NCBI GenBank assembly: GCA_023260695.1
Contig: JALQUR010000379.1
Coordinates: forward strand, 1-59,962
Length of the DNA: 59,962 nt
Direction of reading: 5' to 3'
From: Planctomycetaceae bacterium
GTDB taxonomy: Bacteria > Planctomycetota > Planctomycetia > Planctomycetales > Planctomycetaceae
A model generated the notes under the pieces. The model was given only the letters and a program-made list of their open reading frames with translations, had not been told where the DNA came from and ran no database searches. Positions within the stretch are counted from its first letter, which is position 1, and each line of letters opens with the position of its first letter. The translations under genes and the position numbers were made by a program. Positions 23,281 to 57,217 of the stretch are shown here, piece after piece.

Positions 23281-24279
23281 ATGCCGAAGAATCACGCCAA
23301 AAACGCAGGATTATTGAGGGTATTGCCGGAAATTCTGCTTCTGTTTGTTGCCGTTGTCTGGGGGGTAAACATCCCGGTTATGAAGATTGCGATGGCAACG
23401 GGGATCAACGCCTTCGTTTTCAATGGCATTCGCCTGATCTTTTCCGCGGTCATTCTGGGAGCGTTTGCCGTCAGATCTGCTCCAGCGGATGAGTGGAGCC
23501 GCCTGCAGTCGGTGCGTGGCTCGGTATTGTCATACGCAATGCTGGTTTCGGTTCTTTACCAGCTGCTGTTTCTGCTCGCCGTGACATCCACAACCTCCGC
23601 GGACACAGCGTTGATCATGGCAACGATTCCGCTCTGGACTGCCATTGGAGCCAGGGTTTTCCTGTACGAACAAATCAGTTCAAACGCCTGGTTGGGGCTG
23701 GTCCTCGCGTTCTGCGGGACGGTACTGGTCACCATTGGGGGGGCTCCAGCGGAAGGTTCGTTCGAAGCTGCAGGTGCATTTGAATCGCCAGCTGCCTCAC
23801 TGTCAGCCGCACCGGACCGGGTACAAGGGTTTGCCGGAAGTCTGCGGTTGCGTGGTAATCTGTGTGCTCTTGCGGCCGCCATGGCGTGGGCTGCTGGTAC
23901 AATTCTGAGCCGTCCTGTTCTGCGAACAATTCGGCCACTGACCCTCTCGTCCTGTTCTGCATCGATTGGGTTGCCGCTGCATCTGCTGATCGCGTTGACG
24001 GCGATCTCGGGCCAGTCGTCATTGGTGTTTGATCCTGCAGTGCTGGGGGCAATACTTTATTCCGGACTACTTTCCTCAGGCCTGACGCTCCCGATGTGGA
24101 ATTTTGGTGTGCATCGAGCCGGAGCGGCGCAGGCGGGCCTGTTCCAGAACCTCGCTCCGCTGACTGCAATTGTGGCCGGCTGGCTGCTGTTGAGCGAACC
24201 GCTGACAATTCACCAGGGCGGTGGCGGAACACTGATTCTTGGTGGCTTACTGATCGCTCGGCGAGGCGCGCGCCGCTGA
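23281..24279 (+). CDS. DMT superfamily permease (EamA domains)
   Basis: Two EamA repeats, ~10 TMs; WGVNIPVMKIAMATGINAFVFNGIRLIFSA and GAAQAGLFQNLAPLTAIVAGWLLLSEPLT. Confidence 0.92.
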   Translation: MPKNHAKNAGLLRVLPEILLLFVAVVWGVNIPVMKIAMATGINAFVFNGIRLIFSAVILGAFAVRSAPADEWSRLQSVRGSVLSYAMLVSVLYQLLFLLAVTSTTSADTALIMATIPLWTAIGARVFLYEQISSNAWLGLVLAFCGTVLVTIGGAPAEGSFEAAGAFESPAASLSAAPDRVQGFAGSLRLRGNLCALAAAMAWAAGTILSRPVLRTIRPLTLSSCSASIGLPLHLLIALTAISGQSSLVFDPAVLGAILYSGLLSSGLTLPMWNFGVHRAGAAQAGLFQNLAPLTAIVAGWLLLSEPLTIHQGGGGTLILGGLLIARRGARR

Positions 24280-36453: not shown

Positions 36454-37473
36454 ATGTCGGACGATCCGCTCATCCGAGAGACACGCAGTGGTTTGTTCTG
36501 CGAGCAGGGTGGGTTCTACATTGATCCCTGGCGCCGTGTAGAGCGAGCTGTGATCACTCACGCTCATGCAGATCACGCTCGCCCTGGCTCGCGGAGCTAT
36601 CTCTGCAGTCGTGACGGACTGCGAGTCACTCGCTCCAGACTTGGTCCTGCTGCAGAAATTGACACACTGGCGTACGGCGAATGCCAGGTCATCAACGGTG
36701 TTCGGGTATCCTTGCACCCGGCTGGACATATCCTCGGGTCAGCCCAGGTGCGTCTGGAATACAGGGGTAAGATCTGGGTGGTCAGCGGTGACTACAAGGT
36801 TGAGCCGGACCGAACCTGTGCGTCGTTTGAACCGGTCAGGTGTCATACGTTCATTACGGAATCGACATTTGGTCTGCCCATTTATCGGTGGCCGGCTCAG
36901 GAGTCGGTTTTTGCCGATCTGAATGAGTGGTGGATCCGCTGCAGAGACCGTGATCAGCCGGCAGTTGTCCTGGCATATTCGCTTGGCAAGGCACAACGCG
37001 TGCTAGCAGGAGTCAATCCGGCAATCGGTCCGATCTATTGCCACTCTGCAGTGGAAACACTCAATGCAGAATACCGCGCTTCGGGGGTGGATCTGCCGCA
37101 GACGACAGGAGTGACCAGTCTGCCCCGGCGAAAACGCTGGGGCGGTGCGCTGATCATTGCACCGCCGGGATCTGCGGAATCTGCATGGATCGGTCGATTC
37201 GGTCCAGCTCCCAGGGCCATGGTATCGGGATGGATGCTGACTCGTGCGGGAAGACGCTGGAATTCGCTTGATCGAGGATTCCCGGTTTCTGATCACGCAG
37301 ACTGGCCGGGACTGCACTGGGCCATTCATGAGACGGGTGCCGAAGAAGTTCTGGTCACGCACGGTCAGACGGAGGTGATGGTGCGTCACCTCCGCGAGCA
37401 GGGGATTTCTGCCCGCGAGCTGCGGACGCGTTTTGGCGATGAAGATGTGCCCGTGCAGCAGAAGGAATCGTGA
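36454..37473 (+). CDS. Ligase-associated DNA exonuclease-like metallo-beta-lactamase fold protein
   Basis: AVITHAHADHARPGSRSYL, GHILGSAQVRLEYRGKIWVVSGDYK, TFITESTFGLPIYRW, VSDHADWPGL; matches the exonuclease family usually paired with ATP-dependent DNA ligase. Confidence 0.87.
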   Translation: MSDDPLIRETRSGLFCEQGGFYIDPWRRVERAVITHAHADHARPGSRSYLCSRDGLRVTRSRLGPAAEIDTLAYGECQVINGVRVSLHPAGHILGSAQVRLEYRGKIWVVSGDYKVEPDRTCASFEPVRCHTFITESTFGLPIYRWPAQESVFADLNEWWIRCRDRDQPAVVLAYSLGKAQRVLAGVNPAIGPIYCHSAVETLNAEYRASGVDLPQTTGVTSLPRRKRWGGALIIAPPGSAESAWIGRFGPAPRAMVSGWMLTRAGRRWNSLDRGFPVSDHADWPGLHWAIHETGAEEVLVTHGQTEVMVRHLREQGISARELRTRFGDEDVPVQQKES

Positions 37474-38372
37474 TGATGCAGACGGAAGCACGGCTGACTG
37501 GCAACTCGCCAGCGGTTATTGCGCTCGGTGAAGTGCTCTGGGATTGTTTTCCCGATGGTGCGAGGTTTGGGGGGGCTCCTGCAAATTACTCGTGCAGTCT
37601 GGCGGAGCTGATGGCTTCCGGGAGTGTTCGTCTGTTGAGTGCTGTGGGAGACGATGAGCAGGGGCATGCTGCAGAGCAGGAATTACTGTCTCACGGAGTT
37701 GAGACAAGCCTGCTGCAGCACTCGAGTCATCCTACCGGCCAGGTTTTTGTGCAAACGGACTCGAAAGGAATTGCCAGTTATCGATTTGCTGAGCATTCTG
37801 CCTGGGATGCTTTGCAATGGCATCCTGAACTGGAGCAGGCTGCCCGCGAATGCGATGCTGTCTGCTTTGGTACTCTTGGGCAGCGCAAGCCGGAATCAGC
37901 TGAGGTGATCCGCAGGTTTGTCGCCGAAACCGATTCCGGATGTCTGCGAATTCTGGATCTGAATCTGCGTGCACCGTGGTTTGATGAAGATGTGATTGCA
38001 GCATCCCTTGAGCTCTGCAATGTGCTCAAGGTCAATGAGGAGGAACTCTGCAGTCTTGCCGCGATGTATGGGTTCGTCGGGTCTGCCGAAGAGCAGTTGC
38101 AGCAGTTCTGCAGCCATCTGCGACTTCGCTGTATGGCGGTGACGCAGGGAGACAGCGGAGCAGCTCTGAGCGATGGAAATCAGTTCTGCTCCTGCCCTGC
38201 CCTGCCGGTTGTCGTGCGGGATACAGTCGGTGCGGGTGATGCGTTTGCGGCGGCAATGACACTCGGGCTGCTGCATCAGGAGCCGCTGCAGACAATTCTG
38301 GAGTCAGCCACACAGGCCGCTGCCTTCGTCTGTACTCAGTCCGGCGGTACTCCGCACTTTCCGCACGTGTGA
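37470..38372 (+). CDS. PfkB family carbohydrate kinase (fructokinase-like)
   Basis: VIALGEVLWDCFPDGARFGGAPANYS; C-terminal VVRDTVGAGDAFAAAMTLGLL signature. Confidence 0.93.
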   Translation: MMMQTEARLTGNSPAVIALGEVLWDCFPDGARFGGAPANYSCSLAELMASGSVRLLSAVGDDEQGHAAEQELLSHGVETSLLQHSSHPTGQVFVQTDSKGIASYRFAEHSAWDALQWHPELEQAARECDAVCFGTLGQRKPESAEVIRRFVAETDSGCLRILDLNLRAPWFDEDVIAASLELCNVLKVNEEELCSLAAMYGFVGSAEEQLQQFCSHLRLRCMAVTQGDSGAALSDGNQFCSCPALPVVVRDTVGAGDAFAAAMTLGLLHQEPLQTILESATQAAAFVCTQSGGTPHFPHV

Positions 38373-38413: not shown

Positions 38414-39529
38414 TCATTCTGCGCGGGTCGCTTTGCGAGTCTTCAGATGACTTTCGAAGAACTGAAAACAGCGCTCTGTGACTGCCGGATCGCTGAACTG
38501 TCCGTGTCCGGCATCAGCGACTCGGACGAATTCGCTCGAGTTACCTGCCTTTTTCAGTGCTTCGTGAAGTACTTCGCTCTGGCGAATGGACACCAGCGGG
38601 TCCTTTTCGCCATGCACAATCAGAAACGGCGGTGCGTCTGATTCGATCCATGTGAGTGGAGATGCAAGGCGGGCGAGTTCCTGCTGCTGCTGGAGCGGAC
38701 CTCCGAGGAGCAGTGATTCGGGACTTCCCGGTGCGTCGTGATTCAGAGTTCCGAGTTCTCCGGCATGCTGATTCATCCTGAGCAGGTCAGTTGGTCCGAA
38801 CCAGTCACAGACGGCCTGCACCGCACAGGAAGCGGGATCGGTCGCGTCTGTGGCCTGTAGTTCTGTTGCTGCAGCAGAGGTACCCAGCAGTGCCGCCAGA
38901 TGACCTCCGGCAGAAGCTCCCCACACTCCAATTCGTTCCGGGTCGATACCAAACTTCCCGCTGTTGCTGCGAAGCCAGCGAACGGCCGCTCGACAATCCT
39001 GGATCTGTGCCGGGAAGACTGCGTGATGGCTGAGCCGATAGTTGATGCTGGCGATCACAAAGCCACGTTCAGCGAGATTCGTGATCGGGCAGGACTGCGC
39101 TGAGCCTGCTCGCCACCCCCCGCCATGAATCCAGATCACCAGCGGTGCGTTCTCTGCAAAGGGAGGAGCACGGTAGATATCCAGTGTATGTCGCTCATGC
39201 CCGTCGCTGACGTAGGGAATGTTGCGCTGGATTTTCCAGTCACTGCGATTGCGCTGTGACTGTGACTGTGGCTGTCCCGGGCGGCTCAGGAACTGTACAT
39301 GCTCAGCGAGGGAAATCCGGCCATTGCCGTCGGTATCAACGCGATCAAAATTTGCCCGCAGAGCCGGGGGGAGTTCCTCCCGGGAGATTGATCCATCCTG
39401 ATTTCGGTCAAGTCGACTGAATCCCTGAATTTGTTGCGGAGTACCGACTTCGTCTGCGGCAACGGCCGGGCCGGAATTTGGCGTTTTCACAGCCAGCGTG
39501 CACAGCAGTAGTGCTGTCAGCCTGAACAT
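38414..39529 (-). CDS. Secreted EF-hand plus alpha/beta hydrolase (BD-FAE/esterase-like)
   Basis: Signal peptide, EF-hand loops DRNQDGSISREE and DTDGNGRISLAE, hydrolase motifs LVIWIHGGGWRAGS and GVWGASAGGHLAALLG. Confidence 0.9.
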   Translation of the reverse strand: MFRLTALLLCTLAVKTPNSGPAVAADEVGTPQQIQGFSRLDRNQDGSISREELPPALRANFDRVDTDGNGRISLAEHVQFLSRPGQPQSQSQRNRSDWKIQRNIPYVSDGHERHTLDIYRAPPFAENAPLVIWIHGGGWRAGSAQSCPITNLAERGFVIASINYRLSHHAVFPAQIQDCRAAVRWLRSNSGKFGIDPERIGVWGASAGGHLAALLGTSAAATELQATDATDPASCAVQAVCDWFGPTDLLRMNQHAGELGTLNHDAPGSPESLLLGGPLQQQQELARLASPLTWIESDAPPFLIVHGEKDPLVSIRQSEVLHEALKKAGNSSEFVRVADAGHGQFSDPAVTERCFQFFESHLKTRKATRAE

Positions 39530-39551
39530 GAACTCGATCTCCTCAATGTAC

Positions 39552-40883
39552 TTATTCGGAAGCAGAGAACTCCTGCAGCAGTGCGCTGAGCTGTTCCAGC
39601 TGCTCAGGATTTTCATCAGCAAGATTGGTGGTTTCATGAGGGTCGGAAGTGAGGTCGAACAGGCGGAATTCCTGATTGTCCCACTCGTGCAGTCTGCTGT
39701 ACTGCGTAGTGTCAAGCCCCTTGTATCTGCGAATCAGTTTCCAGTTCCTGTGAATCAGCCAGCGATACTGCAAGGCCCGGTCCGGATGGTCCGTTGTCAT
39801 ATTGAAAACGGAGTGTGTGACCCCTGAAATCGTCTCACGCAGACCACGGACTTCTTCATCAAGCAGATTGATCCCCGTCAGGTTCTCCGGAACAGGCATT
39901 CCGGCAATTGCCGCAATCGTCGGAAACAGGTCGCTGGCGTGAGCCGGATCGCTGCTGCGACTCGGAGCAATTCTTCCTGGCCAGGAGACGAGAACTGGAG
40001 TCCGGATGCCAGCTTCGAAAGGTGATCCCTTGGAACGCAGTGCGTACTGCTGCCATGATTCCTGATGCGGGTCCCTGCTGTTCGTGCTTCTGGCTGCCCA
40101 GCCGTTATCGCAGATGAAGATGATGACTGTGTTTTCAAGGATACGGCGATCTTCCAGATGACTGACAAGACTGCCGCAGGTTTCATCAAACCATTCACAA
40201 CAGGCGTAATAGGCGGCCACATCGTCTGCCCGGCCTGCAGCCTGGTATTTCTGCAGCAGCCGAGCTGGCGGGTTATGCGGGGTGTGGGGCATCATTGGTG
40301 CGTACCACACAAAGAACGGCTGCTGTTCTTTGACGGAGTCGTCAATAAATCGGAACAGCGGCTGCATCGTGTTTCGCCCGATCTGCAGGCCGATGTCTCC
40401 GTGACGTCCCCTGTTTGAGGGATCTCCATGTGTCATGCCGTGCGTAAACCCGCCGTCCTGCCATGAACCTTCCCACCATTTTCCCGACTGAAATGTGCGA
40501 TAGCCGGCATCGGTCAGGCTGCGGACCACACTGGGCAGCTGATGGAATTTCTCACGCAGGGGCAGATCCAGTTCTGCTCGACGGTTACGGCCATCAACGT
40601 CGTTACCTGTAATGCGATGCAGCGATGGCGAGAGCCCTGTCAGCATGGTCGCCAGTGATGGTCTGCAGAGCGGCGAGGCAACATAGCCACGTTCGAAGAC
40701 GATGCTGCGTTGAGCCAGTGCGTCAAGGTTTGGGGTGTGGATCTCTGCGTGCCCCATGAACCCGTAGTCGGACCAGGCCTGGTCGTCCCCGATAATCAGC
40801 ACGATATTCGGGCGTTCGGCAAACGCAGCTGAACCCAGCAGGGCTGACACGAGCGGCAGCAGGAGCAGGATCAATTGGTACAT
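39552..40883 (-). CDS. Sulfatase (S1 family), variant FGly motif CRPSL
   Basis: RPNIVLIIGDDQAWSDYGFMG, YVASPLCRPSLATMLTG, FFVWYAPMMPHTPHNPP. Confidence 0.93.
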   Translation of the reverse strand: MYQLILLLLPLVSALLGSAAFAERPNIVLIIGDDQAWSDYGFMGHAEIHTPNLDALAQRSIVFERGYVASPLCRPSLATMLTGLSPSLHRITGNDVDGRNRRAELDLPLREKFHQLPSVVRSLTDAGYRTFQSGKWWEGSWQDGGFTHGMTHGDPSNRGRHGDIGLQIGRNTMQPLFRFIDDSVKEQQPFFVWYAPMMPHTPHNPPARLLQKYQAAGRADDVAAYYACCEWFDETCGSLVSHLEDRRILENTVIIFICDNGWAARSTNSRDPHQESWQQYALRSKGSPFEAGIRTPVLVSWPGRIAPSRSSDPAHASDLFPTIAAIAGMPVPENLTGINLLDEEVRGLRETISGVTHSVFNMTTDHPDRALQYRWLIHRNWKLIRRYKGLDTTQYSRLHEWDNQEFRLFDLTSDPHETTNLADENPEQLEQLSALLQEFSASE

Positions 40884-40936
40884 GCAGAAAAAATCCAGTG
40901 ATGCTGATGAGGCAGGTCGGGCAGTTGCACAATTCC

Positions 40937-41590
40937 TTACGGTGTCCTGGTGGTGGCGGTGATGGCTGCTGCAACCTGATCCGCCAGTTTCCGGGAGCCG
41001 TTCGTGGTGAAGTGTACATTTCCAGGCCCGCTGAACATATCAGCGGTGAAACGACTTGTCAGCGCATGCAGGTCATTCACTTCGACGGAGTACTTCTGCA
41101 TGACACGCAACGCAATCTGGTTGTATTTGTCATCGTCCCCGACGAAACGGCCGGCTTCACCTTCAGGAACAACGGTTGTGGTGGCAAAAATCAGTCTGGC
41201 CCCGGTTTTCTGCAGACGCTGTACGAGCTTCTCGAGATTCTGCTCATATTGCTCCGGAGAGACGGCCTGAGTGCCCTTGATCTTGTCGCGGTTTCCCTGT
41301 GTTTTCGAATCCGGATGGCGATAGCAAAGATCGTGAAGTCCCCAGTTAAAGTGGATCACGTCCCAGTCAGTGGGTCCCAGCCATTTGTCGATGGCCCCAA
41401 GTCCGGTGACGGTGCTGCCACAGTTTGCCTGTGGTCTGCTGACATTCACTTTTCCCTGCAGGAGTGTCTTTACGTGGGGTGTGTACCCGATCGAGATGGA
41501 ATCGCCAAGAATCAGCGCCTGAGGTAATTCATCAACGGACATGTTCGGGATTAATGGAACGGCCAGGAGTAACAGAATGAATGATCGCAT
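40937..41590 (-). CDS. SGNH/GDSL hydrolase
   Basis: ALILGDSISIGYTPHVKTLL, VIHFNWGLHDLCYRH, C-terminal NVHFTTNGSRKLADQV. Confidence 0.88.
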   Translation of the reverse strand: MRSFILLLLAVPLIPNMSVDELPQALILGDSISIGYTPHVKTLLQGKVNVSRPQANCGSTVTGLGAIDKWLGPTDWDVIHFNWGLHDLCYRHPDSKTQGNRDKIKGTQAVSPEQYEQNLEKLVQRLQKTGARLIFATTTVVPEGEAGRFVGDDDKYNQIALRVMQKYSVEVNDLHALTSRFTADMFSGPGNVHFTTNGSRKLADQVAAAITATTRTP

Positions 41591-41679
41591 GGACAGGGTT
41601 GCTTCCTGATCTCTGGCGGATGTTGCTCCGCGTGGGGTGAGTCCGTTGGTGGCCAGTGAAAACGAAAAGCTGCGATGAG

Positions 41680-43176
41680 TCAGGGATAATCACTGCCCAC
41701 AAGGCTGTGCCGAACGCTCTGCTGCCACTGCAGCAGGTGTTCCCTGAGCTCATCTGCAGTCTGCGGCTGTTCATCGATCAGATTGCGGGATTCAGCCGGG
41801 TCCCGACTCAGGTCGAATAACTCAGCCTCCTCACCCGTGTTGCGAGTGTGAATGACAAGTTTGTGATTGCCTGAGATGACAGCTCGGGCACCCTGTGTCA
41901 GTGGTTCCGGGATTTCCGAGTAGCGAAAGTTCTGAAATGTGCGATTCGGTTTGCCATTCATGAGCTTGACGAGTGGAGTGGTGCCGATCTGTTCCTGCGG
42001 ATCAATCCACGGCGTCTTTGGCGATCCCTGCAGTTCATCCGTATCGAGCATCCAGAAAAAAAGAGGGGCGGGCCGTACAGACATTCCGGTCTCCCAGACT
42101 GGGCTCAGATTGATGCCATCGACTGGCCGATCCGGCAGTGGTTGTTCTGTAATGCTGCAGATTGTGGGAAGCAGATCGCTGGTTACGGCTCTGACACTGC
42201 TGCTGTGAGGCTGAGGTATCGCTGCGGGCCATTCAATCAGGCCCGGAACCAGAATACCTCCTTCATAGATGGTGCTCTTCACACCCCGGTGCGGTTCACC
42301 GAGAGCCGATTCGCCGGAGGTACCGTTGTCACCGCAGTAGAAGACCAGCGTATTCTCGCGCAGCCCGGTTTGCTTCAGATGGTTCCGTAACTCACCGATT
42401 GCTCGATCCATGGCAGTGATCTCTGCGTACCGCTCGCGCAAAACGTGCCCTTTGGGACGTCGGACCGGAAGTCCCGTCTCGTTGGATGTCAGTGCAACTT
42501 CCTGCGGGTATTCTGTGAGCAGGCGATCATACAGAGCGAGATCCTCCGGCAGCCCGCTGTATGGTTCGTGCGGAGATCCGAACCAGACAACCGCCAGAAA
42601 CGGCTGCTTCGATTCACGGCAGCTGTCGACAAATCGGATTGTCTCGTGGATCAGGATCTGAGAACTTTCCCCATTGAATGTCTGCGGCGGGGCGCCATTG
42701 CGGGAAAGAGATGGGTTGAGTTCGAAAAAGTTGTCATGCGAAAGCCACTCATCAAATCCCATTGCTCCCGGATTCAGCGATGAGTCCTGTTTGACAGTTC
42801 CGACATGCCATTTTCCGAAGTGTCCGCAGCGATAGCCGGCATTTGCCAGCACCGCTGCAATGGTGATTTCTTCCGGACGCATCGACCAGCCGGGGGCAAA
42901 AGTTCCCATACGATTGGGATGCCGGCCTGTCAGAAAACTTGCTCGAGTCGGGGAGCAGTTCGGATGCCCGGCATAGAAGCGATCAAACTTCAGGCCCTCT
43001 GCGGCCATGGCGTCGAGCACCGGAGTCCGGACCCATGGATGGCCATTGTAGCCGGTTTCCTCCCAGCCGTGATCATCACCCATCATCAGAATGATATTGG
43101 GCCGCTCTGTCGCAAAGCCGGATTGCTGCAGCAGCACGATGGCAGTGATCAGACAAATCTGCAGTGCACGCATCAT
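41680..43176 (-). CDS. Sulfatase (S1 family)
   Basis: RPNIILMMGDDHGWEETGYNGH, FGly motif CSPTRASFLTG, VFYCGDNGTSGES. Confidence 0.95.
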   Translation of the reverse strand: MMRALQICLITAIVLLQQSGFATERPNIILMMGDDHGWEETGYNGHPWVRTPVLDAMAAEGLKFDRFYAGHPNCSPTRASFLTGRHPNRMGTFAPGWSMRPEEITIAAVLANAGYRCGHFGKWHVGTVKQDSSLNPGAMGFDEWLSHDNFFELNPSLSRNGAPPQTFNGESSQILIHETIRFVDSCRESKQPFLAVVWFGSPHEPYSGLPEDLALYDRLLTEYPQEVALTSNETGLPVRRPKGHVLRERYAEITAMDRAIGELRNHLKQTGLRENTLVFYCGDNGTSGESALGEPHRGVKSTIYEGGILVPGLIEWPAAIPQPHSSSVRAVTSDLLPTICSITEQPLPDRPVDGINLSPVWETGMSVRPAPLFFWMLDTDELQGSPKTPWIDPQEQIGTTPLVKLMNGKPNRTFQNFRYSEIPEPLTQGARAVISGNHKLVIHTRNTGEEAELFDLSRDPAESRNLIDEQPQTADELREHLLQWQQSVRHSLVGSDYP

Positions 43177-44678
43177 TCCGCTCCTTCCGATGAATCGAAA
43201 CCGGGCTCCCGCAGTCCCGTACCTTCAACTCCGGTCAGCGAGTCCCCGAGATCCTGCCGAGCCACGTCGGCCAGTCGCTGCAGCTGGGCAACAACCTCGG
43301 GGTGCTGAACAGACAGGTCATGCAGTTCACCCGGGTCCGAATTCAGATTGAAGAGCGACAGCGGAAGCTGCTCAATCCGATACCCGTGTCGACTCGCGAT
43401 ACCTTCAACGCCGGACTGTGTGATGGACTGCGGCGCCAGTCTGCCCCAGTTCGACGGTTTTCCATTACGTCCAGGTTCCGCGGCCACCGTCAGATATGGG
43501 TGCGGGAAATGCAGTTTCCACGCTCCCTGGCGGATCGCCTGCAGCTGAGTTCCGGAGTAGAACAGCAGCACGTCATGTGGTGGAGCGGCGTGCGGCTGTC
43601 CCAGCAGGAGAGGAAGTGCGGAGCGGCCATCAATAGGAACTTCCGGTCTGCGACCATTGACCAGTTCCGTGAATGTCGGCAGCAGATCAATTGCCATCCA
43701 TGGCTGATCGCTCACTCGGCCTGCCGCAATTCTTCCCGGCCAGCGGATCACACAGGGGACCCTGACTCCACCTTCAAATACGGTCAGCTTTCCTTCACGC
43801 AGCGGAGCCGCAGAACCAGCGTGTTCGCCATAGGACAGGAATGGTCCGTTGTCCGAAATGAACATGATCAGAGTCTTCTCATCAAGCCCGCAACGACGGA
43901 CCGCAGCGAGGATCTGAGCGACAGACCAGTCCAGTTCTTCAATCACATCTGCGTAGAGACCGTGGCCGCTGCGGCCGTTGAATTCTGCTGATGCAAAGAT
44001 CGGGACATGCGGCATGATATGTGGCAGGTACAGAAAGAACGGGCCGTCCTTGTTCTGTTCGATGAACTGCACAGCTCGTTCTGTCAGACGTTTTGTGAAC
44101 TGCGTCTGGTCCGGATCCGTTTCAATGATTCTGCGACCATCATAGAACGGCAGCGGTGGCATGCTGTCAAAGAGCACTGGATGGTATTTTGTGTTGTCAT
44201 TCGAATACGGGATTCCCATCCAGTCATGAAAGCCGTTGTTCATGGGGTGGAACATGGGGCGTGTGCCAAGGTGCCATTTCCCCATGCCACCGACCTGATA
44301 ACCCAGTTCCGCAAACATCTCCGAAAGCAGCCATTCAGAATCGGCAATGCCTCCACGGCTGGTGTGGTTGTAGGCGCCATGCATCCCCAGTCGGTTTGGA
44401 TAGCAGCCGGTCATCAATGCCGTTCGGGATGCCGTGCACACAGCCTGAGCCACATAGAACTGTGTGAAGCGGACACCTTCAGTGCCGAGCCGATCAATTG
44501 CCGGGGTGCGGATCTGTTCAGCTCCCTGAATGCTCAGGTCGGCATAGCCCAGATCATCTGCCATGATCACAATAACATTCGGTTGCTCCACATCAGCTGC
44601 ACAGGAATGCCAGCAGAAACCGTTCAGCATCAGGACTGACAGCAGCAGTCGGATGCATCCTGTCTGAAACGTCGTCAT
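43173..44678 (-). CDS. Sulfatase (S1 family)
   Basis: [21 protein letters not shown], FGly motif [31 protein letters not shown]; overlaps the next sulfatase by 4 bp. Confidence 0.95.
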
Positions 44679-46237
44679 TCGATCACCTCTGGTTCAAAGT
44701 CGCCGGGATTGACCCATCCGGCAGATGGTCGTTTCCCGTTCATGGTCTGTTCGTGGAAACCGGCGCCCGCAGTGGGGCGGTAGTTATCAAAGATTCTCCC
44801 CTGCCCGAACATGCGCGGATCTCCACTCTGACGCAGTTCAGACTCCATCTGCTCGCGGAGGATGCGGATCTGTTCCGCCGAGGATTCACTCACCGCGAGA
44901 TTGTCGACGCAGTACGGATCAGATCGACGCTGATACAATTCATCTGACGGCCGTTTGCCGAAGTTCAGCTGCCAGAACAGATCGCTGCGATCCCGGCGGC
45001 CACGTTCCAGCAGGAGTGTCTTCAGGGGACTTCCATCGGTGTCAAGATAGCCCGTTTCGGGATTTCCAGCCGGCCAGCGATCGGGTTCGTAATTGTGCAG
45101 GTACACGTGTTCTGCAGTGACAATTCCGCGAATCGGATAACCAGCGTCTCCCGGGCGGCCAACATCAGTGCGTTCCTTTCCGATCAGGACATGATTCCGA
45201 TCCGGCTCAATCTGACCAGAACTGCCGCTTTCCAGCAGCGGACGGAGACTGCGGCCAAAGAATGGGCGCATTCCGGAATCCGAGGCTGAGATGCCGGCGT
45301 AGTCGAGGATCGTGGGCGCCAGATCCGTGAAGTTGATGTAGTCCTCGACGTGCCGGCCGGAGACTTCGATTCCCTCAGGAAATCGTACAGCAAAGGGAAT
45401 GCGATTGGAGTCGGGACTGGCGTACCCCTTGACGCGGGGGAAGGGCATCCCATGATCGCTTGTCACGATGATCAATGTGCTGTCCAGCAGTCCTCGCGAT
45501 TCCAGTTCCTGCAGCATCAGTCCAAGGTGGCGATCGGTGTGTTCAACTTCAAATGCATAGTCCAGCATGTCATGTCGCACTGTCTCGTTGTCGGGCCAGA
45601 ATGCGGGAATCTCATCAATGTCGGAGAGTTTCAGGCCGCCCTTTGTGGCCCCGGCCTGAAACTCGTAGCGGCGATGGGGTTCTGTACTGCCGTACCAGAA
45701 ACACCAGGAGCGTCCTTCCGGACAGGCGTCCAGAAAACTCCGGAAATTCCCCGCGTAGTCGTTGTTGCTGATGGCTTCGGCTGGTGGCTGAGCCTTCAGT
45801 TGCTGCCAGGGTTTCCCGGTCAGCTGTCGATTTACTCCAGCTGCATTGCGTGCAATTCCCGGCCCCCAGCCCTTGCCTGTAAACCCCATGTGCCACCCGG
45901 CTTCCGTCAGTGCTTCAGGCCAGCTGCGGAATCTGGCCGGAAACATTGCTAGGTGATTGCCTGCTTCCTCAAGCTGCCAGAAATTCCTTCCCGTGAGCAC
46001 AATCGCTCGCGATGGAGCGCATTTTGCCATTGGAGTCCATGCATTTTCGAACAGGACACCTTCCATCGCGACGCGGTCAAACGCAGGTGTACGAATCCAT
46101 GGGGTACCGTATGCCCCTGCGTGCAGCCCCCAGTCGTCGGCGATGGCAAACAGGATATTCGGCGGCGCTGCTGCGGCCGTCTGCAGAACAGGCAGGATTG
46201 CCAGCAACCCCAACGCCAACCGGAAGAAAGTCTGCAT
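44675..46237 (-). CDS. Sulfatase (heparan N-sulfatase-like)
   Basis: [33 protein letters not shown], FGly motif [30 protein letters not shown]; overlaps the next sulfatase by 4 bp. Confidence 0.95.
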
Positions 46238-46373
46238 CTGCGTTCCTTTTCATTCTGCTGCATGGTTGTCATTGCCGCAGGCGACAGATCCGAAGGGCAG
46301 TCTGCGAATTCGCATCGGGTACTTCGGTAGATCGGCTGCTGCAGCCCATCGCCGCAGGTTTCGAGTGTTCAGG

Positions 46374-47801
46374 TCAGCGTTCAATCGCTCCGGCGGCTCC
46401 CCAGGAATTCGGTTCACTGAGCAGTCGGGGAGAGACTGGCTGGAGTTGCTGATCGCCCTGCAACGCCATCCAGTAGTCAAGCTTCGTTCGCAGCCGCAGC
46501 AGTTCCGTCCGGAACTCCGGCCTGTCGGAAAGATCTGTTTGTTCTGCCGGGTCTGCAGTCAGATCGTACAGCTCTTCAGCTGGCCGCTGATGATAGCGTT
46601 TCAGGATTGCGGCTGCAGCCGGGTCTGATTCAGCAGCTGTTTCCCACGTTGCAAAGAAGTCACGTTGTCCCAGTCGTCCCGCCACCAGATCGATGTGAGT
46701 TGTGAAAGCGTTTTCGGGGTGCAGATTGCGGATGTACTTCCAGCGTTCTTCCGTAACGCTTCGCGCCGGGTAGACATTCATGCGGTTGTCATTTGAGTGG
46801 AGGGCGAAGATCTGATTCCTGTGGGCTTGCCGGGATTGCAGGAGCACTGGCAGAAACGAGCGACCATCGAGACCCTCAGGTGCGTGACCTCCGGCCAGTT
46901 CCACAAACGTCGGCAGCAGGTCCACCCAGCTCACCATTGCTGATGAACGAGTGCCAGCTGCAATCCTTCCGGGCCAGGAAAAAATTAACGGAACACGAAT
47001 CCCGGCTTCGTAAAGATTCCACTTGGCGAATGGCCACTGAGCACCGTGATCAGAAGTGAAGATCACGACGGTGTTGTCGGACAGATGCTCCCTGACTCCG
47101 TTGAGCACTGTCTGAAGGTCGCGATCAGCAGATTCCACTGCTGCAGCGTAGCGAGCACGCCAGATACGTGTTCGCGGTGTGTCAATGCTTCCCGCCGGCA
47201 GCTTCAGCTCGTCTGCATTGATGTCAGTTGTGTCTTCCGGCCAGGGGACGTGTGGCCAGTTGCTGCCGACCATCAGACACAGCGGACGGGAGTCGGAATT
47301 TCTGCGCTGGGAAAGGAAATCAACAGCAGCGGTGATGCCCGCATGGTCATGAAAGCCATCATTGGCAAATACATCAAAACCATAGTCTGCGGTATGGCGA
47401 TAATGAGAGACCTTGCCGAATGCAGCAGTCTGATAGCCCAGTTCCTGCAGGAATGACGGCAGCTTACGGAGCTCAGCTCGGGGACGGCTGTGGTTGGATT
47501 CAGCGCCATTGCGAGCCGGCATCAGCCCTGTCAGCAGGGCAGCGCGACTGGGTGCACAGGACGGTGATGCAACGTAGGCTCGGTCGAATGACATCCCTGT
47601 TGCTGCCAGCTGCCGGATGGCAGGTGTCCTGATTCCTGTGGCTCCCCAGGGCTGTGCATCAAGCTGGCTGAAATCATCAGCAATGACGAGGACGATATTG
47701 GGCAGCTCGGCATTATCGGAGAACAATGGGCTGCAGAAAACTGTGAACAGGCAGGCGGGAATCAACGTTGATAATGCTGATGCCATGCGAAGCTGAAGCA
47801 T
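46374..47801 (-). CDS. Sulfatase (iduronate-2-sulfatase-like)
   Basis: LPNIVLVIADDFSQLDAQPWGATGIRTPAI, FGly motif CAPSRAALLTGLMPARNGAE, TVVIFTSDHGAQWPFAKWNLYEAGIRVPLIFSWPG. Confidence 0.95.
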   Translation of the reverse strand: MLQLRMASALSTLIPACLFTVFCSPLFSDNAELPNIVLVIADDFSQLDAQPWGATGIRTPAIRQLAATGMSFDRAYVASPSCAPSRAALLTGLMPARNGAESNHSRPRAELRKLPSFLQELGYQTAAFGKVSHYRHTADYGFDVFANDGFHDHAGITAAVDFLSQRRNSDSRPLCLMVGSNWPHVPWPEDTTDINADELKLPAGSIDTPRTRIWRARYAAAVESADRDLQTVLNGVREHLSDNTVVIFTSDHGAQWPFAKWNLYEAGIRVPLIFSWPGRIAAGTRSSAMVSWVDLLPTFVELAGGHAPEGLDGRSFLPVLLQSRQAHRNQIFALHSNDNRMNVYPARSVTEERWKYIRNLHPENAFTTHIDLVAGRLGQRDFFATWETAAESDPAAAAILKRYHQRPAEELYDLTADPAEQTDLSDRPEFRTELLRLRTKLDYWMALQGDQQLQPVSPRLLSEPNSWGAAGAIER

Positions 47802-47913: not shown

Positions 47914-47949
47914 ACGGCCCCGCTGAGACAGGAGTCTCCGCGGGGCCGT
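47914..47949 (-). terminator. GC-rich hairpin terminator downstream of the HtrA-like gene
   Basis: CGGCCCCGC...GCGGGGCCG stem; minus-strand transcript continues UUGCUUUUG. Confidence 0.65.
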
Positions 47950-49612: not shown

Positions 49613-50953
49613 TCAGAGTTGCCGGTTGTGGTCAGATTCCGGGGCGAATTCAGAAGAATCTCCGGAATTCTGATCTTCGAGCATCTCGGGCCACTTTCCG
49701 GCAAACGTGCGTTGCGCCCGGTAGATTCCAGCCGGGCCACTGCACAGCCAGGCGACGCTGCAACCAACAGCCAGCTGCGGTAGAAATCCAGTGGCAGCAA
49801 GATCCGGACTGTTGGGCAGGAACAGTTCAAAGCCCATCAGGGTGGATGCCAGGGGGGTGTTTGTTGCTGCAGCGAAGACGGCGACAAACCCGATGCCGGC
49901 AAGGACATCCGGTGCAATCTGCAACGGGCCGCTGAGCACATTGCCCAGCGTTGCACCGACGTAAAACAAGGGAGTCACTTCCCCACCCTTGAATCCGCTG
50001 CCAATCGTGATCGCCGTGAAGATGAGTTTGCCGAGCCAGCTGAACGGGTTGGCACCGTCCTGTTCAAAACTGGACACGATACAGACTGCGTCGCGTGTGG
50101 CTGGGTTGGCTTCCACGCCGAGTCCAAGGAAGTGGTTATGGCCAGCCAGCAATGTCATCAGGATGATGCAGATCCCGCCGCAGCAGGGACGCAGCCAGGC
50201 AATGCGGATGCTGCGTGTAACGACGGCATGTACGGATTGTGATGCGACAGCAAACAATCTGCCGGCAAACCCAAAGCAGACACCGGCCACGGCAATCTGC
50301 AGCAGGACGGATGTTCCGCCTCCACCACCGGTAATCATGTAATGAGTGTGCGGGATGCCCCACGCAGTGGTGACTGCATCGGCAATGAGTGCGCTTGCCA
50401 GACAGGGAACCAGTGCACTGAGTCGCAGAGCGCCAATGCCGGGCATTTCCAGCGCGAAGAGAGTGCCAGCCAGTGGGGTACCAAATACCGCAGCAAATCC
50501 TGAGGCGACCCCGCAGCTTAACATGACGCGAAGTCGGCGGGGGCTGAGCTGCAATGTTCGGGACAGCAGTGCAGCGAGGCTGCCTCCCATCTGGACAGCC
50601 GTGCCTTCGCGACCGGCAGAGCCACCTGCGAGATGCGTGAGCAGCGTCCCTGTGAGCACCAATGGTGCCATTGCAGCAGGTACACCGTCCCGAGGACTCA
50701 GTAACTCATCGATGATCAGATCATTTCCACGAGCGGAGGAGCTTCCATAAAAGTGATAAAGCAGCCCCGAAATCAGGCCCGTGATCGGAAGCAGGAACAG
50801 CAGCCACTGGTGCCCCCAGTGGAGTCGGGTGACCAGATCAAGCAGCCACAGGAACAGTGCCACTGCAGATCCCACGACAATCCCAAGGAGCGTGCACAGT
50901 GGTGCCCAGATCTGCAGTTCACCGATCAGCTTGCTGGATGTAGATGTGTGCAT
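49613..50953 (-). CDS. CLC family channel/antiporter, CLC-F (fluoride/proton antiporter) type candidate
   Basis: GNDLIIDE in place of GSGIP; GGSAGREGTAVQMGGSLAALL; GSGFKGGEVTPLFYVGATLGN; AAATNTPLASTLMGFELF. Confidence 0.88.
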   Translation of the reverse strand: MHTSTSSKLIGELQIWAPLCTLLGIVVGSAVALFLWLLDLVTRLHWGHQWLLFLLPITGLISGLLYHFYGSSSARGNDLIIDELLSPRDGVPAAMAPLVLTGTLLTHLAGGSAGREGTAVQMGGSLAALLSRTLQLSPRRLRVMLSCGVASGFAAVFGTPLAGTLFALEMPGIGALRLSALVPCLASALIADAVTTAWGIPHTHYMITGGGGGTSVLLQIAVAGVCFGFAGRLFAVASQSVHAVVTRSIRIAWLRPCCGGICIILMTLLAGHNHFLGLGVEANPATRDAVCIVSSFEQDGANPFSWLGKLIFTAITIGSGFKGGEVTPLFYVGATLGNVLSGPLQIAPDVLAGIGFVAVFAAATNTPLASTLMGFELFLPNSPDLAATGFLPQLAVGCSVAWLCSGPAGIYRAQRTFAGKWPEMLEDQNSGDSSEFAPESDHNRQL

Positions 50954-55639: not shown

Positions 55640-57217
55640 TTATTCGGGAAGGCCGATTTCTTTCGTCTCTGGCCCCAGCCAGACCACCAGAATTCCCAGG
55701 ACGTAGATCCCGGCCATTGTCATTCCTGCACGCGGAAAGTCGTTCCCGAAGTAGTTGATCAGGGTTGTGGTCTGGAGTCCTCCGATTGCAGCAAGAATCC
55801 TCCCAAAATTAAAAGCAAAACCCTGCCCTGTTGCTCGCACCGCCGTTGGAAACAGCTCAGGGAAGTACAATGGGAAGAAACCGTAGAATGATGAAGTGAC
55901 TCCTCCTGCGAGGAAGGCGGCGAACAGGAAGCTGGTGCCGAAGCTGTCGTGCAGCCCGTAAAAGTACCATGTCGCCGCCAGCGAGCCGATGCAAAGGGCA
56001 GCATAGGTGATCCGGCGACCAAATCGTCCAGCGGCGACAGCTGCCAGAATCGTTGAGATGATTGCTCCGACTGCCATGGCAATCTGAGTCATCTCTCTGG
56101 GGTATGCCGCAAGGCTGCGGCCGAGTATTTGCTGGCCAGGATTCTGCAGGGGGAGTTCTGCGGACCATTTGGGAGCCCATTGCACAGCTCCCCATGTTCC
56201 CAGCAGCGCAACACCGGCCAGTAATGCGCCGAAAAGCATGCGGCCGGTGATCAGTCGAGCACTTTGCCGGGTGATGCTGCCGCTGCTCACCGAACGATTG
56301 AGGTATTTACGGACCGGGTGGATGAAGCCAGACAGCGAGATGACCAGGCCGAGCACTGTCAGGCCAATTGAGACACCTGTGGAAAGCTGCAGTCGATCGG
56401 CGATCGGAGACCAGACAATAACGATCACGATGGCACTGATGCAGCCCAGCAGAACCGCGAGCAGATCCGAGTTGCTCCAGTTTGAGGTCTTTCCAGCCGC
56501 GTGCTCCTCTTCCCAGCGACTGGACTCCGGAACGAACAGGCGAATGAAGAAGATCAGTAATGCGGGAACGGCCCCTGTGATCATCAGGAAACGCCATGCG
56601 GAGTTTCGGAGCAGACTGTCCACGGTCTGTTCGTTCAGCCCGGTCTGCAGCAGAACCGTCTGGATCTGGTCAATGACCCGAGCCATTTCCATGCTGAGCA
56701 GTGCGACAAGCAGGAATCCTACATTAGCTGCAGATCCGATCAGGCCGGCGATGAACGCTCTGCTTTTTCCCGGCCAGATTTCGTTCACAAGGGCGACGCC
56801 AAGGGACCATTCTCCGCCCATTCCGAGCGACGCAAAGAAACGCAGTCCAGCGATATGCCATGCCTCGGTCGCCAGGCCACAAAGCCCCGTGAACAGTGCG
56901 TACGTAACGATACTCAGAGACATCGCCCGCACACGGCCGATCTTGTCGCCCAGCCAGCCGAAGAGCACTCCTCCACTTGCCGCGCCGACAAGAAAGACAG
57001 CCATGATGACCCCGAACCACTGGTCCGAAGTTGAGGCGGAGTTTTCGCCGAGCAGTTCCTGCAGGGCCGGTTTGCCGGTGAGTGGAAACAGCCCCATTTC
57101 AAATCCGTCGAACATCCACCCCAGCAACGCGGCCGTAAGCGTTGAGAATTGTGCCCAGCGACCTCGAGTGGAAGAAGAACCGGATGCCTGTGGCTGCGTT
57201 TCTGTCATGGGTCGCAT
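55640..57217 (-). CDS. MFS transporter (sugar/metabolite:H+ symporter-like)
   Basis: 12 TM-type hydrophobic pattern, GWMFDGFEMGLFPL, GWLGDKIGRVRAMSLSIVTYA, PELFPTAVRATGQGFAFNFGRI. Confidence 0.93.
   Translation of the reverse strand: MRPMTETQPQASGSSSTRGRWAQFSTLTAALLGWMFDGFEMGLFPLTGKPALQELLGENSASTSDQWFGVIMAVFLVGAASGGVLFGWLGDKIGRVRAMSLSIVTYALFTGLCGLATEAWHIAGLRFFASLGMGGEWSLGVALVNEIWPGKSRAFIAGLIGSAANVGFLLVALLSMEMARVIDQIQTVLLQTGLNEQTVDSLLRNSAWRFLMITGAVPALLIFFIRLFVPESSRWEEEHAAGKTSNWSNSDLLAVLLGCISAIVIVIVWSPIADRLQLSTGVSIGLTVLGLVISLSGFIHPVRKYLNRSVSSGSITRQSARLITGRMLFGALLAGVALLGTWGAVQWAPKWSAELPLQNPGQQILGRSLAAYPREMTQIAMAVGAIISTILAAVAAGRFGRRITYAALCIGSLAATWYFYGLHDSFGTSFLFAAFLAGGVTSSFYGFFPLYFPELFPTAVRATGQGFAFNFGRILAAIGGLQTTTLINYFGNDFPRAGMTMAGIYVLGILVVWLGPETKEIGLPE

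Follow-up and report, generated by a model that had tools for sequence, protein, structure and literature searches.

A co-oriented row of sulfatase genes in a Pirellulales-like planctomycete and its member with an altered active site

A planctomycete genome in which five sulfatase-like genes lie in a row raises two questions: which function such a row might serve as a unit, and whether all five products still operate as sulfatases. The locus considered here is situated in the window, by which we mean the whole analysed stretch of 59,962 nucleotides—contig C166 of a Pirellulales-like MAG of 5.36 Mb that is 90% complete.

Content and organization of the cluster

Seven co-oriented genes occupy the minus strand between positions 38414 and 47801 and are arranged in the transcription order E, D, C, B, SGNH-like gene, A, and BD-FAE esterase gene (Table 1). 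The original prediction had described this row as five sulfatases, an SGNH hydrolase, and an EF-hand alpha/beta hydrolase, which description agrees with the Pfam matches obtained for all seven products, and both of the 4-bp ATGA overlaps that had been noted can be seen in the sequence; the other intergenic gaps measure 136 bp (E–D), 89 bp (B–SGNH), 53 bp (SGNH–A), and 22 bp (A–esterase). A seven-gene operon is plausible, since a likely hairpin terminator is found before E and since the last gene is convergent with a PfkB kinase gene, from which it is separated at the 3' end of the cluster by a gap of 41 bases. The automatic promoter and terminator scan of the cluster performed no better than on shuffled sequence, so that the operon structure, and with it the putative co-transcription, rests on spacing and orientation. 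The Rfam and tRNA scans gave neither an Rfam match nor a tRNA. Judged by eye, all seven products begin with a hydrophobic, signal-like stretch; the proteins of the cluster are probably exported.

Table 1. Positions in the window of the genes and sequence elements of the cluster.
Feature	Coordinates	Strand	Evidence
Sulfatase E, 475 aa, CAPSR; the putative operon begins here	46374..47801	-	PF00884 2.7e-41; nearest solved S1_8B/S1_8A; motif
Sulfatase D, 520 aa, KCAPSR, GKGWGPG; SGSH/S1_8-like	44675..46237	-	PF00884 1e-28; nearest solved human SGSH 1.5e-33, S1_8A
Sulfatase C, 501 aa, CTASR, GKWHLG; arylsulfatase A/GALNS/steryl-sulfatase-like	43173..44678	-	PF00884 2.3e-56 and PF14707
Sulfatase B, 498 aa, CSPTR, GKWHVG	41680..43176	-	PF00884 8e-50
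ATGA overlap, D stop/C start, exactly 4 bp	44675..44678	-	sequence
ATGA overlap, C stop/B start, exactly 4 bp	43173..43176	-	sequence
SGNH/GDSL-like protein, 217 aa	40937..41590	-	PF13472 3.9e-11; alignment with relatives
Sulfatase-like A, 443 aa; CxPSL/GKWW family	39552..40883	-	PF00884 7e-47; motif conservation; AF2 model and Foldseek
CRPSL active-site pentapeptide of A; Arg to Leu at residue 77	40653..40667	-	motif and conservation
GKWW of A; His to Trp at residue 137	40473..40484	-	motif and conservation
EF-hand and BD-FAE-type alpha/beta esterase, 371 aa; last gene	38414..39529	-	PF20434 9.9e-69; EF-hand matches
GC-rich hairpin followed by TTGCTTTT (T-rich tail); probably terminates the DegP-like gene upstream and so bounds the operon	47915..47948	-	sequence; partial match in the terminator scan (scan no better than shuffles)

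B, C, D, and E each combine a PF00884 domain with the C-x-P/A-x-R motif of the S1 FGly-sulfatases, which motif reads CSPTR, CTASR, CAPSR, and CAPSR, respectively. Their nearest solved relatives are all distant: human SGSH and the lambda-carrageenan enzymes S1_8A and S1_8B, of the S1_8 subfamily, for D and E; arylsulfatase A, GALNS, and steryl-sulfatase for C; and GALNS/ARSA-like enzymes for B. Because of this distance, and because S1_8 covers N-sulfamidases as well as galactose-2-O-sulfatases (PMC12549532, PMC10154612), the substrate cannot be named from these matches, nor can that of D and E be read from their kinship with S1_8. Matches to D at E<=1e-60 occur in 82 of 100 genomes of the order. 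In the sulfatase tree—whose branches are long and whose details are unsure—the five cluster sulfatases stand on separate branches, which placement rules out a recent tandem duplication of the five.

The SGNH-like protein keeps the GDS block with the catalytic Ser, and the Gly and the His are likewise present; block III reads GLHD, the Asn having been replaced by His, and block V reads GNVH, from which the Asp is absent, both in the window and in the related loci L051 and L052. The esterase ORF had been listed from 39715; the ATG at 39529, directly after the stop of A, gives 371 aa with no overlap with A, and is most likely the start. The product has a strong catalytic-domain match to the BD-FAE esterases (PF20434), from which it differs by two EF-hands in its N-terminal part; the Ser, Asp, and His are visible in GASAGG, HGEKDP, and AGHGQ, and a relative is encoded in locus L141.

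With respect to the surroundings, the window had been said to contain no glycoside hydrolase (GH), polysaccharide lyase (PL), transporter, or FGE. Among the window genes scanned there is indeed no GH, PL, or FGE, but transporters are present, all outside the cluster: an MFS transporter (55640-57217), an EamA protein (23281-24279), ABC genes, and a CLC protein (49613-50953). The MFS transporter, on the minus strand and some 8 kb upstream of the cluster, weakly resembles symporters for aromatic acids and for sialate and shows no sign of a link with it. With neither GH/PL nor uptake genes in the cluster, and with the window transporters unrelated to it, the locus does not qualify as a polysaccharide utilization locus. 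To call it a sulfatase-only locus, as had been proposed, is fair locally, but FGE-domain genes are found on other contigs of the same genome (the best on C546, with 278.8 bits), so that nothing is missing for the maturation of B to E; as for anSME, neither a SPASM nor a TIGR03942 match was obtained in that genome. Within the genome, which yields 86 PF00884 matches (about 82 distinct), the cluster is the densest sulfatase grouping, the next densest holding four and three.

Active site and spread of the A family

The original prediction had counted five S1-type sulfatases, and PF00884 is present in all five, but A lacks two of the active-site residues by which an FGly-sulfatase is defined. When considered as an S1 FGly-sulfatase, A retains the domain, the fold, the metal ligands, the Cys, the Lys, and the His, whereas the Arg of CxPxR and the His of GKWH are absent, its motifs being CRPSL against the usual CxPxR (CxPSR) and GKWW against GKWH. 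The AF2 model of A has a pLDDT of 94.2, and all 50 of the 50 Foldseek matches listed are sulfatases. The best matches in both sequence and fold are the S1_16 and S1_19 carrageenan/galactose sulfatases (9fo1, 6psm, 9hh2), which at about 25% identity are closest to A and yet are canonical sulfatases, whereas A has lost the Arg and the His.

We collected 107 non-identical relatives from planctomycetes, verrucomicrobia, and lentisphaera, together with one Balneolota and one Acidobacteriota record. Residue 77 is Leu in 106 of them and Ile in the remaining one, and residue 137 is Trp in all 107, while Asp33, Asp34, Cys73, Lys135, His200, Asp259, Asn260, and Lys285 are invariant wherever aligned. Leu was absent from all the search patterns used to fetch these relatives; KWWEGSWQ was one of the six patterns, and many members devoid of it keep the Trp. 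In an alignment of 63 rows, all eight catalytic positions are among the about 51 invariant columns of 422. Within the genome of the window, the motif carries Arg in 70 of the 72 readable sulfatases, and Leu only in A and a paralogue on contig C563.

Barbeyron et al. (2016) give the motif Arg as 99% conserved in sulfatases, and for the His of GKWH a role as the base that regenerates FGly is proposed (PMC5066984); the latter residue is conserved in 81% of S1. In published structures the Arg touches FGly and is salt-bridged to metal-ligand Asp residues, and it is described as strictly conserved among the structures that were compared, among them that of a phosphonate hydrolase (PMC4014121). In view of this conservation elsewhere, A may not carry out the standard FGly chemistry. 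Barbeyron et al. also mention nine sequences, from Planctomycetes and Lentisphaerae, in which Ile or Leu takes the place of the Arg and which they suggest to be perhaps inactive (PMC5066984). With these nine A shares the change of Arg to Leu or Ile and the provenance from those two groups, and, likened to them by description, it probably belongs with them. Beyond the Arg change described in that passage, the group of A proves to be one extensive family in which a second change, from His to Trp, is fixed as well; it is found almost throughout one order, is conserved, and enters into fusions repeatedly. Our literature search for a CxPSL sulfatase returned nothing beyond that publication; the variant that the A family represents is widespread and conserved, and was partly foreshadowed in 2016.

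Members of the family occur in 90 of a sample of 100 genomes of the order, as a rule with one copy per genome. In a phylum-wide sample of 294 genomes they occur in 38, of which 16 belong to the same family as the window. In the sulfatase tree they form one clade on a long stem, with a support of 100/100. The family is under purifying selection, and we regard it as a separate, old, and PVC-wide one within the alkaline phosphatase superfamily.

Although most members are stand-alone genes, fusions occur in several genera; the partner of the CxPSL/GKWW domain is a canonical (CxxSR) sulfatase domain, which may precede or follow it, or else a BNR_2 sialidase-like or another large domain. The CxPSL domain comes first in the two-sulfatase fusions L290, L288, L113, L289, L293, L295, and L286, and last in L287, L285, and L292; an Arg-bearing motif was read in the second domain of nine of these ten, and was not picked up in L292. 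A CxASL sulfatase-like domain with GKFW accompanies a BNR_2 sialidase-like domain in L294 (346-2832, minus strand; Pfam was run on this one) and in L284 (1418-4096, plus strand). In L281, L282, and L283 the CxPSL domain is followed by a long C-terminal part—in L283 one without a Pfam match—which may represent a planctomycete-type multidomain protein. Across the phylum, we found no conserved neighborhood of the family beyond sulfatases and common planctomycete genes, so that the tie of A to the rest of the cluster may be local.

Possible roles of the cluster and of A

The desulfation/deacylation module that had been proposed is still the most likely reading of the cluster: the signal-like starts, the partly kept gene order, and the existence of similar operons (PMC4807772) are in line with it. 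The earlier count of five S1-type sulfatases and an SGNH hydrolase hides, however, that A and the SGNH-like protein each lack residues of the usual active site. In its present form, to which we give somewhat more credence than to its negation, the operon strips sulfate and probably acyl groups from a sulfated glycan, with A as an active hydrolase that has a modified site and acts on the same glycan. B to E, as four canonical FGly sulfatases matured by an FGE encoded elsewhere in the genome, would remove the sulfate, while the BD-FAE esterase, and perhaps also the SGNH-like protein, would remove the acyl groups. We think of A as an active hydrolase because the Cys, the metal ligands (Asp33, Asp34, Asp259, and Asn260), Lys135, His200, and Lys285 are invariant; it would most likely still act on sulfate, with other invariant residues—for which Arg160, His161, Arg170, and His203 are candidates—standing in for the missing Arg and His.

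More tentative, and in our estimation possible rather than probable, is the extension of this proposal to the CxPSL/GKWW family as a whole, namely, that the family constitutes a branch of the alkaline phosphatase superfamily that is active without the FGly-stabilizing Arg and His, which branch would use either an unmodified Cys at the metal or an Arg-independent FGly maturase and would thus represent a new catalytic variant, near-universal in Pirellulales-like bacteria.

A rather unlikely alternative is that the chemistry of A has changed along with its site: in a site of the alkaline-phosphatase type, a Cys that stays unmodified, or is matured in an unusual way, would cleave a different ester, for instance a phospho(di)ester. 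FGE is described as recognizing CxPxR, and in this family Leu replaces the Arg throughout while the Cys is invariant; moreover, phosphonates and phosphates are substrates of related hydrolases (PMC4014121, PMC8746622). Nevertheless, FGE-domain genes are present in the A-family genomes examined, so that an absence of FGly does not follow, and the sulfatase and sialidase-like partners in the fusions point to sulfated glycans. Genomes with an A-family gene but without FGE were sought as a natural test and rejected as such: three genomes of one genus were blank at E<=1e-40, yet had weaker FGE-domain matches and at least 20 sulfatase matches each.

We likewise consider it improbable that A is a catalytically dead sulfatase that persists next to the four active ones as a glycan binder or a structural component. 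In favor of such a pseudo-enzyme are the absence of the Arg by which FGly is contacted and the metal ligands are salt-bridged, the absence of the proposed regeneration base, and the fusions of the CxPSL domain to an intact sulfatase; Barbeyron et al., too, raise possible inactivity for sequences of this kind (PMC5066984). A dead site, however, would not need the Cys, the four metal ligands, the Lys, and the His that are invariant in 107 diverse members; most of these members are stand-alone genes; and the dN/dS of A against L051, at 0.09, is like the 0.04-0.08 of its neighbors.

Annotation pipelines tally the CxPSL proteins as ordinary sulfatases. If the family is active, either the sulfatase mechanism can do without a residue that is regarded as essential, or glycan degraders of a dominant group possess another chemistry for cleaving esters; if it is dead, a role has to be sought for a conserved pseudo-enzyme. 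The equivalent of the lost Arg in human SGSH is the residue changed in R74C, a common MPS IIIA allele.

Conservation of the cluster in relatives

The MAG JALRDR (L051) contains D-C-B-SGNH-A, while the genome G090 carries C-D-E on one contig (L140) and B-SGNH-A-esterase-PfkB-exonuclease on another (L141). In G005, of another genus, D-C-B is present at 65-68% identity (L143), and in G073 B adjoins D (L146). Two close MAGs keep the cluster in pieces, and only parts of it are conserved beyond the nearest relatives. Heterophyletic, operon-like, and fast-changing sulfatase clusters have been described in planctomycetes (PMC4807772), and with those of Rhodopirellula and its relatives the present one shares the co-oriented arrangement in which unrelated sulfatases stand beside other glycan enzymes, the occurrence of fused sulfatase genes, and a partial conservation across genera; it differs from them in comprising five sulfatases and two esterase-type genes with no glycoside hydrolase, and in having a CxPSL member. 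Since its spread over branches of the tree and its partial conservation fit the operons described, the cluster itself is ordinary for the group.

That the cluster might be a pile-up of sulfatase genes with no common substrate, brought about by rearrangement in a sulfatase-rich genome, would accord with the separate tree branches, with the high turnover described for such clusters (PMC4807772), and with the limited conservation outside the nearest relatives, but is the least probable of the alternatives, for five sulfatases in seven consecutive genes appeared in just 7 of 20,000 random placements (84 sulfatases among about 4,600 genes, the latter number being estimated), the ATGA overlaps link neighboring genes, and the order recurs in two other MAGs and, as D-C-B, in another genus. 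A density above chance is, for its part, no surprise in planctomycetes, whose sulfatase genes are known to cluster. At the 3' end, a ligase-associated DNA-repair exonuclease gene (TIGR04122) followed by the PfkB kinase gene lies on the plus strand at 36454-38372, and both also adjoin the cluster in G090.
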